A stretch of DNA of 64,000 nucleotides from Alcaligenes sp. SDU_A2 (GTDB lineage Bacteria > Pseudomonadota > Gammaproteobacteria > Burkholderiales > Burkholderiaceae_B): the NCBI RefSeq assembly GCF_038237375.1, contig NZ_CP151273.1, positions 2,914,001 through 2,978,000 on the forward strand. The letters are read 5' to 3'. Shown here one piece after another: positions 7,353 through 50,050 of this stretch. Within the stretch, counting starts at the first letter, position 1. Each line of letters begins with the position of its first letter. A program made the position numbers and the translations under genes. The notes under the pieces are model-generated. The model worked only from the letters and a program-made list of their open reading frames with translations. It made no database searches and had not been told where the DNA came from.

Positions 7353-8975
7353 ATGCTGTCCGCCGGCTCTGGCTATTCAAGTACCTACTCGTCTTTTCGT
7401 TGGCTCGTCCCCAAGCATTACAACATCGCCGCCGACACCTGCGACAAATGGGCCGACGGCTCTGGCCGACTGGCGCTGATCCAACACATGCCGGACGGTC
7501 AGGTTCATCGCTATAGCTTTGATCAGTTAAAGCGCTGGTCAGACGCACTGGCAGCCGCCTGGCAAATACAAGGCCTGAAACGCGGCGACCGAATCGGCAT
7601 TCTGCTGGCGCAAGGGCTGGAAACCGCACTGGCGCATCTGGCCGCCTACAAAATCGGGGCCATCGCCATGCCGCTGTTTACCCTGTTCGGCACGGATGCG
7701 CTGATGTATCGCCTGAACGACTCGGGGGCCTGCGCCTTGGTCACAGACCAGAGCGGCCTGGACACGCTCCGCCCCATCCGGCATCAGCTCACTCACCTGC
7801 AACACATTTATAGCGTCGATGCTAGCGAATCAACCGCCACCGAGCATGCATTCTGGCCCGTTCTGGAATCCGCAACAGGCACCGACTTCCAGCCCGCGCA
7901 GACCCGTGCCGACGACCCTGCCGTACTCATCTATACGTCCGGCACCACGGGTTCGGCCAAAGGAGCACTGCACGCCCACCGCGTGTTGTTGGGGCACCTG
8001 CCCGGCGTAGAAATGTCGCACAATTTTCTACCACGCGGTCAGGGGCTGATGTGGACGCCCGCCGATTGGGCCTGGATAGGCGGGCTGCTGGATGTGCTGC
8101 TGCCAGCCTGGCACCACGGCATGCCGGTGCTGGCCCATCGTTTTCCAAAATTCGATGCCCAGGCAGCCTGGGCGCTGATGTCCGAACACGGTGTCACGCA
8201 CACCTTTCTGCCCCCCACCGCCTTGAAAATGCTGCGCCGCAGTCCGTCGCCACGCACACGCTGGCCACTGCAGTTGCAGTCCATTGCCAGCGGTGGCGAA
8301 TCTCTAGGGGCCGAACTGTTGCAATGGGCGCGCCAGGAACTGGGCATCACCATCAACGAGTTCTACGGCCAGACCGAATGCAATATGATCGTCTCCTCCT
8401 GCTCTGCCTGGTTTCCCGGCCAGGCGGGCAAGATCGGCAAGCCGGTCCCCGGCCACCGGGTGGCGATTGTGGACGAAACCGGCCAGATCCTGCCGGTCGG
8501 ATCGGAAGGCCATATCGCTGTACAGCGCCCTGATCCGGTCATGTTCCTGGAATACTGGCAACGTCCGGAAGCGACGAACGAGAAATTTGTAGGCGACTGG
8601 CTGCTGACCGGCGACAAAGGCATGCTGGACGAAGAAGGCTATATCCGCTTTGTCGGCCGCAACGACGATGTCATCACCAGCGCCGGCTACCGTATCGGCC
8701 CCGGCCCCATCGAAGATGGCCTGCTGGGTCATCACGCCGTTGCGCTGGCAGCGGTCATCGGCGTTCCCGACCCGGAACGCACCGAGGTCGTCAAAGCGTT
8801 CATTGTGCTCAAGGACGGCGTGGAACCGTCAGACGAACTGATCAAAGATATCCAGGAGCACATCAAACGCCGCGTCGCCGCCCACGAATACCCCCGCATC
8901 ATCGAATTCGTAGACTCGCTGCCCATGACCGCCACCGGCAAAGTAATACGACATGCCTTGCGGCAACGCCGATGA
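7353..8975 (+). CDS. AMP-forming acyl-CoA synthetase
   Basis: A 540-residue adenylate-forming enzyme that activates a carboxylic acid with ATP and joins it to CoA. The P-loop-like core LIYTSGTTGSAKGALHAH lies near residue 190. NEFYGQTECN, the adenylate hinge region LLTGDKGMLDEEGYIRFVGRNDDVI and the C-terminal catalytic lysine motif TATGKVIRHALR are all intact. Its layout resembles medium-chain/acetoacetate-type bacterial acyl-CoA synthetases rather than Acs proper. AAGGA precedes ATG 7353 by 9 bases. The stop codon lies in the first bases of the palindromic repeat at 8972, so the gene end and the repeat touch. The fatty or aromatic acid substrate is unknown. Confidence 0.92.
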   Translation: MLSAGSGYSSTYSSFRWLVPKHYNIAADTCDKWADGSGRLALIQHMPDGQVHRYSFDQLKRWSDALAAAWQIQGLKRGDRIGILLAQGLETALAHLAAYKIGAIAMPLFTLFGTDALMYRLNDSGACALVTDQSGLDTLRPIRHQLTHLQHIYSVDASESTATEHAFWPVLESATGTDFQPAQTRADDPAVLIYTSGTTGSAKGALHAHRVLLGHLPGVEMSHNFLPRGQGLMWTPADWAWIGGLLDVLLPAWHHGMPVLAHRFPKFDAQAAWALMSEHGVTHTFLPPTALKMLRRSPSPRTRWPLQLQSIASGGESLGAELLQWARQELGITINEFYGQTECNMIVSSCSAWFPGQAGKIGKPVPGHRVAIVDETGQILPVGSEGHIAVQRPDPVMFLEYWQRPEATNEKFVGDWLLTGDKGMLDEEGYIRFVGRNDDVITSAGYRIGPGPIEDGLLGHHAVALAAVIGVPDPERTEVVKAFIVLKDGVEPSDELIKDIQEHIKRRVAAHEYPRIIEFVDSLPMTATGKVIRHALRQRR

Positions 8976-9381
8976 CATCGCCCCGGCTCTACGCACTCGT
9001 GCCAAACAGAACATTCAGCGGATGGCTGACACCTTGTACGGCGGACACGCACGTTCTGCCGTTTAGGCCAAGCGAAAAGGAACTCGGGTTCTCGCCAGGG
9101 CACTCGTAGCGGGCCGGCTTGGCTGGGTCCTTCGCCCGCGCTGCGTGCGGATTCCCTGGTCAGGATACTGGAGCGGGCGGGGCGTGAACTCGCAGGGTGA
9201 TTCGTCCACTGGACAAATCACAAGCGCCCTGCTCGAACAGCACGCCCCTTGCCTCCCGCCCCAGTATCCCGCCTGCGGCGAAGGCCCTGACTCGCCCACC
9301 GTCCCGCTACGAGTGCCCTGACGAGAACAGCACCGTTGTGCTTGACCCAAACTGCCTACCCACGACGAAGCAATCCCCGAA
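8972..9381. repeat. Large palindromic dispersed repeat, copy 1
   Basis: About 410 bp shared with 47836-48245. The core 9062-9352 is one large imperfect inverted repeat. Outer arms begin TTTAGGCCAAGC and end GCTTGACCCAAAC; the inner arms CAGGGCACTCGTAGCGGG and CCCGCTACGAGTGCCCTG are perfectly complementary; the centre is GATTCGTCCACTGGACAAATC. The left flank starting GATGACATCGCCCCGGCT (8972-9061) and the right flank ending AATCCCCGAA match the other copy in direct orientation, whereas the core is inverted relative to it. The element lies between the acyl-CoA synthetase stop codon and the pstB terminator. Open reading frames across it share no codon-like bias with neighbours and look spurious. 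Confidence 0.85.
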
Positions 9382-9397
9382 ATCTCGTGAAGAACCA

Positions 9398-47412: not shown

Positions 47413-47502
47413 CAGTCCAGCCCCGCTTACGCGGGGAACACCTGCTCTGCAACGTGTCGGGTGACCTGTATTTCGGTTCATCCCCGCTGACGCGGGGAAC
47501 AC
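47413..47502 (-). CRISPR. Decayed two-repeat CRISPR remnant
   Basis: Repeats at 47413-47441 (three mismatches in its outer part) and 47474-47502 (one mismatch, CTGACG for CTTACG) flank a 32-nt spacer, the exact geometry of the main array. A third, heavily changed unit may follow near 47533-47560 (GGTTCTTCGAAGCATTCCGG). It lies on the trailer side of the main array, where old repeats usually decay. Confidence 0.85.
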
Positions 47503-47576
47503 TTGTTCTTCTCGTAGCAGGCCCTTTTCTGGGTTCTTCGAAGCATTCCGGGAATCAATTTTTACTAATTCGATGA

Positions 47577-47830
47577 GGAGCTGGCTTTTTGAAGGCACCA
47601 TTCAAGGCGCAGCTCGCTCGAACAGGGCTGATGGCTTGCCGGCGCTGCGCGCCGGTGCCCTGGTCGGGCCACATGGCCGGGCGCGTCGTTAACTCCGGCG
47701 GCTTGCTTGTCCACCGGACAAGCAAGCCGCCGTCGAACAGAACGACGCTTGCACCCCGTCCCCGCGCCCCGCCTGCGGCAAGCCATCCGACCCGCCCCGT
47801 CCAAGCGTACTGCGCCTTGACCGGCTCAAA
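47577..47830. repeat. Large palindromic dispersed repeat, variant copy
   Basis: Outer arms ATTCAAGGCGCAG (47602) and CTGCGCCTTGAC (47811-47822) face each other. The centre is a perfect 17-bp stem with a 3-base loop (CGGCGGCTTGCTTGTCC at 47696, complement ending 47732). Its order of landmarks (CCCTGGTC, GTCCAC-GGAC, TCGAACAG, CCGCCTGCGGC) is that of the 8972 element, but the stem sequences differ while still pairing. The left arm is repeated at 2069-2150. No coding sequence is supported here. Confidence 0.8.
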
Positions 47831-47835
47831 ACTCC

Positions 47836-48245
47836 GACGACATCGCCCCGGCTATACGCCTTCATGCCAAACGGGAAATCAGCGGATGACTGTTACCTTG
47901 TACGGTGTACACGGACGCTCCGCCATTTGGGCCAAGCACAGCGGTGCCGTTCTCGCCATGCCCGCCTTAGCAGGTCAGCGGGCGAGTCAGGGCCTTCGCC
48001 GCAGGCGGGATGCCGGGGCGGGAGACAAGGGGCGTGTTGTTCGAGCAGGACGCGTGTGATTCGTCCACTGGACGAATCACCCTGCGAGTTCACGCCCCGC
48101 CCGCCCCGGTATCCAGACCAGGGAACCCGCGCACAGCGCGGGCGAAGGACCCAGCCAAGCTGACCTGCTAAGGCGGGCATGGCGAGAACCCGAGGTTCTC
48201 TCTGCTTGGCCTAAACGGCTCAAGCAATACGAAGGAATCCCCGAA
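47836..48245. repeat. Large palindromic dispersed repeat, copy 2 (core inverted)
   Basis: The core 47926-48215 is 290 bp long, against 291 bp in copy 1, and matches it as its reverse complement. The flanks 47836-47925 and 48216-48245 match copy 1 in direct orientation. Inner arms CTCGCCATGCCCGCCTTAGC... and their complement are perfectly paired over 28 bp but differ from the arms of copy 1. The centre is GATTCGTCCACTGGACGAATC. It ends 14 bp before the first trailer-end CRISPR repeat. Confidence 0.85.
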
Positions 48246-48258
48246 CCCTTTTCTGATT

Positions 48259-49937
48259 CGGTTCATCCCCGCTTACGCGGGGAACACACAAACGAGGGGC
48301 TGCCGACAACGCGCAGTCGCGGTTCATCCCCGCTTACGCGGGGAACACCAAGGCGGGGCTACTCAAGACCGACTCTATCTCGGTTCATCCCCGCTTACGC
48401 GGGGAACACGTGAGCATGCCAAGCAGGGCCACACCCAACGCCGGTTCATCCCCGCTTACGCGGGGAACACTTTGCTGATCAGGCCGGTATGGCCGTGGGT
48501 GACGGTTCATCCCCGCTTACGCGGGGAACACACCGCCATAGTAACCCTGGCGGATAAACATTTCGGTTCATCCCCGCTTACGCGGGGAACACCTATCTCG
48601 GGCGCTCAAGGAAAAGTCTTGGACCTGGTTCATCCCCGCTTACGCGGGGAACACCGTAGACTTTGGTCAAGGCCGTGGCGGTATTCCCGGTTCATCCCCG
48701 CTTACGCGGGGAACACCGTAGACTTTGGTCAAGGCCGTGGCGGTATTCCCGGTTCATCCCCGCTTACGCGGGGAACACAACTTGGCTAGCTGATCTTGTG
48801 AGCGCGTCAGCGGTTCATCCCCGCTTACGCGGGGAACACCCCTCTGGCACATCTACGGCCACCACTATGCGCGGTTCATCCCCGCTTACGCGGGGAACAC
48901 ATTTCCATCACGGTAAACCCGACCTGGGCACACGGTTCATCCCCGCTTACGCGGGGAACACGGTATGTACTAGGCGTGTACGCGATGTGGTAGCGGTTCA
49001 TCCCCGCTTACGCGGGGAACACGCCGAACCGCTCACACAGCGCGAAGCGGAAATCGGTTCATCCCCGCTTACGCGGGGAACACCAATACCTGGTTCAAGC
49101 AGATGACGCCGCGCCTGGTTCATCCCCGCTTACGCGGGGAACACCACGTAAGAAAATCCGCTCATGGCTCCACCCCCGGTTCATCCCCGCTTACGCGGGG
49201 AACACAGGGTCGGCGTCAGGTATTTCGTAGTCGCCCACGGTTCATCCCCGCTTACGCGGGGAACACGAACGCCTGCGCCGTATGTCCGAAATGGTACCCG
49301 GTTCATCCCCGCTTACGCGGGGAACACCCATACTGGCGGGTCGGCTTCCGTTGCGCAAACGGTTCATCCCCGCTTACGCGGGGAACACTTCGCCAGGTTC
49401 TTGCGCATCTCGTCCAAGCCCGGTTCATCCCCGCTTACGCGGGGAACACTCTTCCCTGGCAATGGTGGAGTCATGATGCAGCGGTTCATCCCCGCTTACG
49501 CGGGGAACACGATCTCAAACTGGAACGGGTAGGCGGTATCCCCGGTTCATCCCCGCTTACGCGGGGAACACTTTTGCTCAGCACCTACAAAGTCGAGAAA
49601 TTGCGGTTCATCCCCGCTTACGCGGGGAACACAAGTGGCGGCTGCCCTCAGCAAAGGTAAATTCCGGTTCATCCCCGCTTACGCGGGGAACACCGCAAAA
49701 GCACCGGGTTAAACCAATTGACCTGCGGTTCATCCCCGCTTACGCGGGGAACACCCGCTAACCAATATGACCTATTTGGCCAGACCCGGTTCATCCCCGC
49801 TTACGCGGGGAACACGCATCAGCCAAACGCGGGTCTACAACAACATCCGGTTCATCCCCGCTTACGCGGGGAACACGTTACCAGCAATTGTGGACGTATC
49901 TTTTTTACCGGTTCATCCCCGCTTACGCGGGGAACAC
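48259..49937 (-). CRISPR. Type I-E CRISPR array, 28 repeats and 27 spacers, no cas genes in window
   Basis: Twenty-eight 29-nt repeats with the stem CCCCGCTTACGCGGGG, beginning CGGTTCAT and ending GAACAC on the plus strand; the unit is 61 bp, or 62 bp in three consecutive units from 48565 to 48751. Read on the minus strand the repeat starts GTGTTCCCCGCG and ends GATGAACCG, the type I-E form with the 5' handle ATGAACCG. The A+T-rich leader at 49938 fits that direction. The outermost base varies (T instead of C before 48627 and 49117), as expected for the PAM-derived base. The spacers at 48655 and 48717 are identical. No cas gene lies on either side. Confidence 0.98.
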
Positions 49938-50050
49938 TCTAAAAACAAACCATTGATTTCAATAGAAAAATACCAGACCAGATTTTCCACCAAAAAAACA
50001 ACTGATTCCGCCGCCTGCTTTCTACCTGCTTTGCAAGGTCACCGATGTTA
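49938..50050 (-). promoter_or_regulatory. CRISPR leader
   Basis: The first 75 bp beyond the last repeat are strongly A+T-rich (AAAAACAAACC..., then GAAAAATACC and CCAAAAAAAC), unlike the surrounding G+C-rich DNA. The array end, the direction of the repeat and the decayed trailer on the other side all mark this as the leader carrying the array promoter. The rest of 50051-50231 shows nothing else I recognise. Confidence 0.85.
49946..49958 (-). promoter_or_regulatory. IHF-binding consensus in CRISPR leader
   Basis: The minus strand reads AATCAATGGTTTG, a full match to WATCAANNNNTTR, 8 bp from the leader-repeat junction. In E. coli type I-E, IHF binding at this distance is needed for Cas1-Cas2 to insert new spacers. 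Confidence 0.75.

Follow-up and report, generated by a model that had tools for sequence, protein, structure and literature searches.

Recurrent inversion of a large palindrome with a structured centre in a probable miniature transposon of Alcaligenes

Two copies of a palindromic element lie in the window (the 64,000-nucleotide stretch of the Alcaligenes sp. SDU_A2 genome analysed here), and they raise the question of whether a segment of DNA has been turned over in place and, if so, whether it acts as a switch. A preliminary description held that the two cores run in opposite directions between flanks of the same orientation, and this stands: the cores are identical at 252 of 296 positions as reverse complements versus 189 of 287 in direct comparison (an inverted pair of 294 nt at 86%), and the left flanks agree in the same orientation at 74 of 91 positions in a gapped alignment. 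The concern that palindromy could leave orientation ambiguous is removed by a segment-by-segment likelihood map, which separates both orientations across the entire core.

Results

The palindrome is part of a repeated element

What had been read as flanks belongs to a longer repeated unit of ~733 bp that ends in terminal inverted repeats and is bordered by 8-bp target duplications. Aligned full copies give its layout as a left end (GGTTCTTCGAAGAATTCC), a palindrome P2 (~250 bp), 92 bp, a second palindrome P1 (298 bp) and a right end (...GAAATTTCTCGAAGAACC), 733 bp in total. The core, first given as 290/291 bp, spans 298 bp in both copies (47922–48219 and 9058–9355) with an outer 17-bp repeat at its bounds, and the perfect inverted repeat of copy 2 grows from 28 to 31 bp (47949–47979 and 48159–48189). 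Nor is the copy number two: searching the genome that contains the window, a single contig of 3.65 Mb, revealed a family of ~40, ~31 near-complete and ~10 partial, with many internally deleted variants (211–736 bp). The element has no recognised coding gene, and no copy lies on plasmids. Its features in the window are as follows (orientation states are explained in the next section).

2021–2133 (start approximate), forward strand: truncated left end of a further copy, immediately following the terminator T-tract between two tRNA-Pro genes
8965–9396, forward strand: copy 1, a left-truncated member without P2, right terminal repeat intact
9058–9355, reverse strand: core P1 of copy 1, inverted relative to its own flanks, end spacers included (RR)
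9175–9253, reverse strand (L030 1618–1696): 79-nt structured motif of copy 1
47524–47531, no strand: left target-site duplication CTTTTCTG, inside a CRISPR spacer (the joined flanks give a 32-nt spacer)
47532–48247, forward strand: copy 2, a non-autonomous transposon of 716 bp, left terminal inverted repeat GGTTCTTCGAAGCATTCCGGG, right end ~13 bp shorter than in the family
47576–47826, reverse strand: palindrome P2 of copy 2
47679–47753, reverse strand (L001 1350–1424): 79-nt structured motif in P2, with a 5-nt deletion in copy 2
47830–47921, forward strand: 92-bp left flank, part of the element, orientation fixed
47922–48219, forward strand: invertible palindromic core P1 of copy 2, 298 bp, in the commonest orientation (FF)
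47922–47938, forward strand: left outer inverted repeat of copy 2, GCCATTTGGGCCAAGCA
47949–47979, forward strand: left inner inverted repeat of copy 2, 31 bp, perfect
48024–48102, forward strand (L001 1695–1773): 79-nt structured motif in P1 of copy 2, with strong covariation and invariant internal loops
48159–48189, reverse strand: right inner inverted repeat of copy 2, 31 bp, perfect
48203–48219, reverse strand: right outer inverted repeat of copy 2, TGCTTGGCCTAAACGGC
48248–48255, no strand: right target-site duplication CTTTTCTG

The element has transposed. Across 31 elements the 8-bp duplications are 93% A/T and agree at a mean of 6.5 of 8 positions, where offset controls give 2.05. A stable hairpin stands on the T-tract side in 26 of these 31 elements and on the other side in 7 (p=2e-7), a bias that identifies the T-tract of an intrinsic terminator as the usual target among the A/T tracts that receive insertions. 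Copy 2 has entered a CRISPR spacer; excising 47532–48247 with one CTTTTCTG leaves 32 nt, the same length as the other spacers. The array itself (47413–49990) has 29-nt repeats, holds the transposon in one far spacer and carries one duplicated 62-bp repeat–spacer unit (48624 and 48686). No cas protein occurs among its tested neighbours; an ABC transporter and nuclease-like genes adjoin it, and cas1-like matches lie elsewhere in the window's own genome (G000), at 61.5 kb and 2816 kb. The two tRNA-Pro genes at 1902–2364, with a truncated element end between them, are nearly identical and 369 bp apart.

The element has the terminal inverted repeats and target-site duplication of a MITE. It also shows both parts of what we take to be the ISL3-family rule, a terminal inverted repeat beginning GGYTCTT and an 8-bp A/T-rich duplication, and is a MITE or other non-autonomous insertion-sequence derivative, probably of ISL3 type. 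In its own genome we found no autonomous partner with the same ends, no end pair at IS-like distance and no ISL3 transposase; the sole ISL3 match there sits inside a desaturase-like open frame and was rejected as a partner. None of the other species of the genus that were searched has these ends.

P1 occurs in four nested orientation states

Holding flank orientation fixed, we scored each copy along its core against forward and reversed profiles. All four nested states occur among the 31 copies: 22 are FF, 6 RR, 1 FR and 2 RF, so that 9 depart from the common arrangement. RR copies are inverted throughout, end spacers included (L020, L021, L023, L026, L027 and L030, the last being copy 1 of the window); in FR (L059) the centre alone is inverted, and in RF (L028 and L029) the end spacers alone are exchanged. 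Such nesting puts breakpoints in both the 17-bp outer pair of repeats and the 31-bp inner pair, and the four states would require at least three inversions or conversions. For P2, the 12 full copies aligned include no inverted one. Within the genome the P1 centres form a star-like tree that fixes neither the number of flips nor whether the six RR copies share an origin; these may therefore stem from one flip spread by transposition.

Inversion recurs at an orthologous locus

Related palindromes are present in eight of the nine other species of the genus that were searched, and their loci sort by flanks into 16 orthologous groups. One of these, shared by eight Alcaligenes species and lying at 752 kb in G007, has flanks collinear for up to 3.2 kb around a 240–290-bp core that, in 20 of 35 pairs, matches at 86–97% on the opposite strand only. 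G007, G008 and G003 hold one arrangement; G006, G001 and G004, together with G009 (sequence partly rearranged), hold the other, in which the asymmetric end spacers have changed places; in G002 the centre is inverted and the ends are not. The nested architecture is that of the window copies although the repeat sequences differ: the outer repeat is ATAGGGTGGCAG/CTGCCACCCTAT at this locus, as against GCCGTTTGGGCCAAGCA in the window's genome, and the inner repeat measures 31 bp. Well-supported branches of the flank tree (G002 with G003, 100/99; G007 with G008, 97/95) require at least two orientation changes, and we count three when the state of G002 is included. The remaining 15 of the 16 groups show no inversion between the species compared; apparent inversions at those loci, with opposite-strand matches of 78–84%, proved to be cross-matches between P1 and P2. 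Over evolutionary time, inversion is both real and repeated.

Several other features were seen at or between these palindromes. In G004 a 78-bp tandem repeat array adjoins the truncated palindrome of the orthologous locus (L051 1623–2329). Two pairs of orthologous loci (L191 and L206; L194 and L201) differ by a second, divergent palindrome (an extra 440–510 bp), a gain or loss between species. Palindrome copies of G003 at 3023218, 3068468 and 3113718 are spaced by exactly 45,250 bp, which suggests tandem triplication of a 45-kb region; similar spacings of 27–30 kb occur in G007, G008 and G006.

The palindromes share a structured 79-nt centre

The middle of P1, and on the other strand the middle of P2, consists of a motif with the plan CAAG–stem 1–CTGTTYGAG–stem 2–ACGCTT–stem 3–CGAGTT. 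Over 20 diverse sequences its 22-pair consensus is paired in 97.5% of cells, with 17 of the 22 pairs changed on both sides, and 0 of 500 shuffles reach the observed score. On the P1-forward strand, G-U outnumbers A-C by 18 to 3 among 50 motif instances (p=0.0015, with related sequences treated as independent), an excess suggesting that one strand is structured, as RNA or as single-stranded DNA. A covariance-model search detected the motif in 70 of 269 family genomes, spread over 23 of 43 genera; 398 genomes sampled elsewhere in the phylum gave no match. Carriers include Alcaligenes sp. SORT26 (29 copies), A. pakistanensis (13), Paralcaligenes ureilyticus (57), Pusillimonas sp. MFBS29 (16) and Pollutimonas harenae (3); Advenella, two Achromobacter species, Verticiella and a Pelistega genome lack it. 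Most loci in the several genera tested have near-perfect arms of at least ~30 bp, ~40–180 bp either side of the centre. Close motif pairs are divergent in 21 of 21 cases in relatives (many of them orthologous) and in 12 of 13 in the window's genome, where the lone exception is the inverted copy L059.

Rfam returned no match above gathering score, and the sub-threshold matches, mostly to eukaryotic microRNA models, were discarded; the structured centre appears to be undescribed so far. An IS110-type insertion of ~1.39 kb, 99.6% identical between loci, occupies the same point in the centres of L044 and L050 (around 1589–2979; G006, another Alcaligenes species).

This pattern of pairing, strand bias and distribution makes it a serious contender, if somewhat short of an even bet, that the palindrome persists because it works as a structured RNA or single-stranded DNA, its inversions being neutral by-products. 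Against it, the strand signal fades when all strand-symmetric pairs over the whole of P1 are counted (G-U to A-C 26:16, p=0.16, not significant), and the p-values treat related sequences as independent. Such selection would account for the conservation rather than for the flipping, and is compatible with the explanation that we prefer.

The arms are nearly identical within copies and could mediate the flips

Within a copy the inner arms match at 93%, against 82% between copies (28 copies), a value that 0 of 2000 permutations reach, and one arm column pair shows all four Watson–Crick pairs. At the orthologous locus 30–31 of 31–32 arm positions match in six species, even though the arm sequence has changed. 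Inverted repeats whose sequences vary by locus while the arms stay near-perfect favour template switching or strand exchange over a dedicated invertase.

Arms of this kind would permit in-place turnover of the segment between them: a crossover in the outer repeat would invert the whole core, and one in the inner repeat the centre alone. The route is most likely an exchange between the arms, by template switching during replication or by reciprocal strand exchange, rather than a dedicated site-specific recombinase, and either would re-homogenise the arms as well. P1 belongs to an older family of 250–300-bp palindromes of Alcaligenaceae, built on a polar 79-nt structured centre, nearly perfect inverted arms of ~30 bp and, often, a second, shorter inverted repeat outside. 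The explanation as a whole, that a transposon inserting at terminator T-tracts carries P1, which flips in place through its arms by template switching or strand exchange, is the one that we consider likely. Template switching between inverted repeats is reported to leave homogenised arms and an inverted spacer (PMC8604942; see also PMC8794818). The published spacer inversions span 2–5 bp in yeast coding genes and 4–8 nt in RNA loops (PMC8604942, PMC8794818), far shorter than the 180–290 bp found here, so we infer the molecular mechanism in this case. Arm covariation could also reflect selection on structure, and a recombinase that recognises structure instead of sequence is possible.

Ordinary inverted-repeat recombination, dependent on RecA and acting between the 31-bp arms, is a less probable route. 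It fits arms that are perfect or nearly so, and both crossover regions are inverted repeats; homogenisation would then require a separate gene-conversion step, and 31-bp arms with outer repeats of 12–17 bp are short for efficient RecA-dependent exchange.

Slightly less probable again is that nothing has flipped in place in this genome, the RR copies descending by transposition from an old inverted master copy and the mixed states arising by gene conversion between copies. The star-like tree is consistent with such a history, and conversion through the arms could swap centres between copies, but more than one event is needed to produce four states at two pairs of repeats, and at the orthologous locus of other species inversion did occur in place, the tree requiring two changes or more.

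More speculative, and in our judgement unlikely, is that the 79-nt centre represents a new functional class of structured RNA or single-stranded DNA, specific to Alcaligenaceae and arranged in divergent pairs, for which the nested arms would form a two-step flip system altering the strand, and hence the neighbouring gene, that carries the motif. Least likely is a dedicated switch in which P1 is turned by a site-specific recombinase of the tyrosine or serine type, reorienting a promoter, terminator or small RNA: perfect inverted repeats bound a core that occurs in both orientations, and its polar conserved motif changes strand with each flip, but crossover takes place in two different repeats whose sequences vary from locus to locus, and the element, short and non-coding, is too small to hold a recombinase gene.

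Discussion

The preliminary description proposed an invertible switch, and its two halves part company here. Inversion between inverted repeats is upheld, both within the genome and at the orthologous site in other species; a regulatory switch is not supported, because the loci share no constant recombinase site, the element has no linked recombinase, no output is known and most orthologous loci hold one orientation between species. We file the element as a MITE with large, arm-corrected, invertible palindromes and a conserved structured centre. Bacterial palindromes on the 180–290-bp scale here preserve a natural history of inversion in place and of arm correction, with several flips readable at one locus. 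The motif, widespread in one bacterial family and unmatched in Rfam, can be tested for transcription, protein binding and a role in replication or mobility.

Among known systems, the element resembles ISL3-type MITEs in terminal inverted repeats that start GGYTCTTCG, in its A/T-rich 8-bp duplications and in having no recognised coding gene, and differs from them in its unusual length, its two large palindromes and the lack of a detected autonomous partner; ISL3 elements of a sister species have different ends (GGCTCTACCCC). Like REPs and REPINs, the palindromes are intergenic, multi-copy and usually arranged in divergent pairs, and an IS110-type element has inserted at a palindrome centre, much as insertion sequences insert in REPs (PMC1525189). 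REPs and REPINs, which carry a conserved GTAG/CGTC tag and are mobilised by RAYTs, are however palindromes of 20–40 bp, whereas those described here measure 250–300 bp around a 79-nt multi-stem centre. The BRE is a ~90-bp intergenic repeat of Betaproteobacteria, arranged in tandem and frequent in Comamonadaceae (PMC3110155); our motif is dispersed and confined to its own family among the genomes searched, and we reject identity with this Bordetella repeat on distribution rather than on sequence. With Hin- and fimS-type switches the element has in common a segment found in both orientations between inverted repeats, but it has no linked recombinase, and in place of a constant crossover site it uses two pairs of repeats, outer and inner, both varying by locus. 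A further parallel is with template-switch mutations (PMC8604942, PMC8794818), in which arm homogenisation accompanies a recurrent and reversible spacer inversion, as it does here; the difference lies in a spacer of 180–290 bp, carried within a mobile repeat and inverted at two nested levels, inner and outer.
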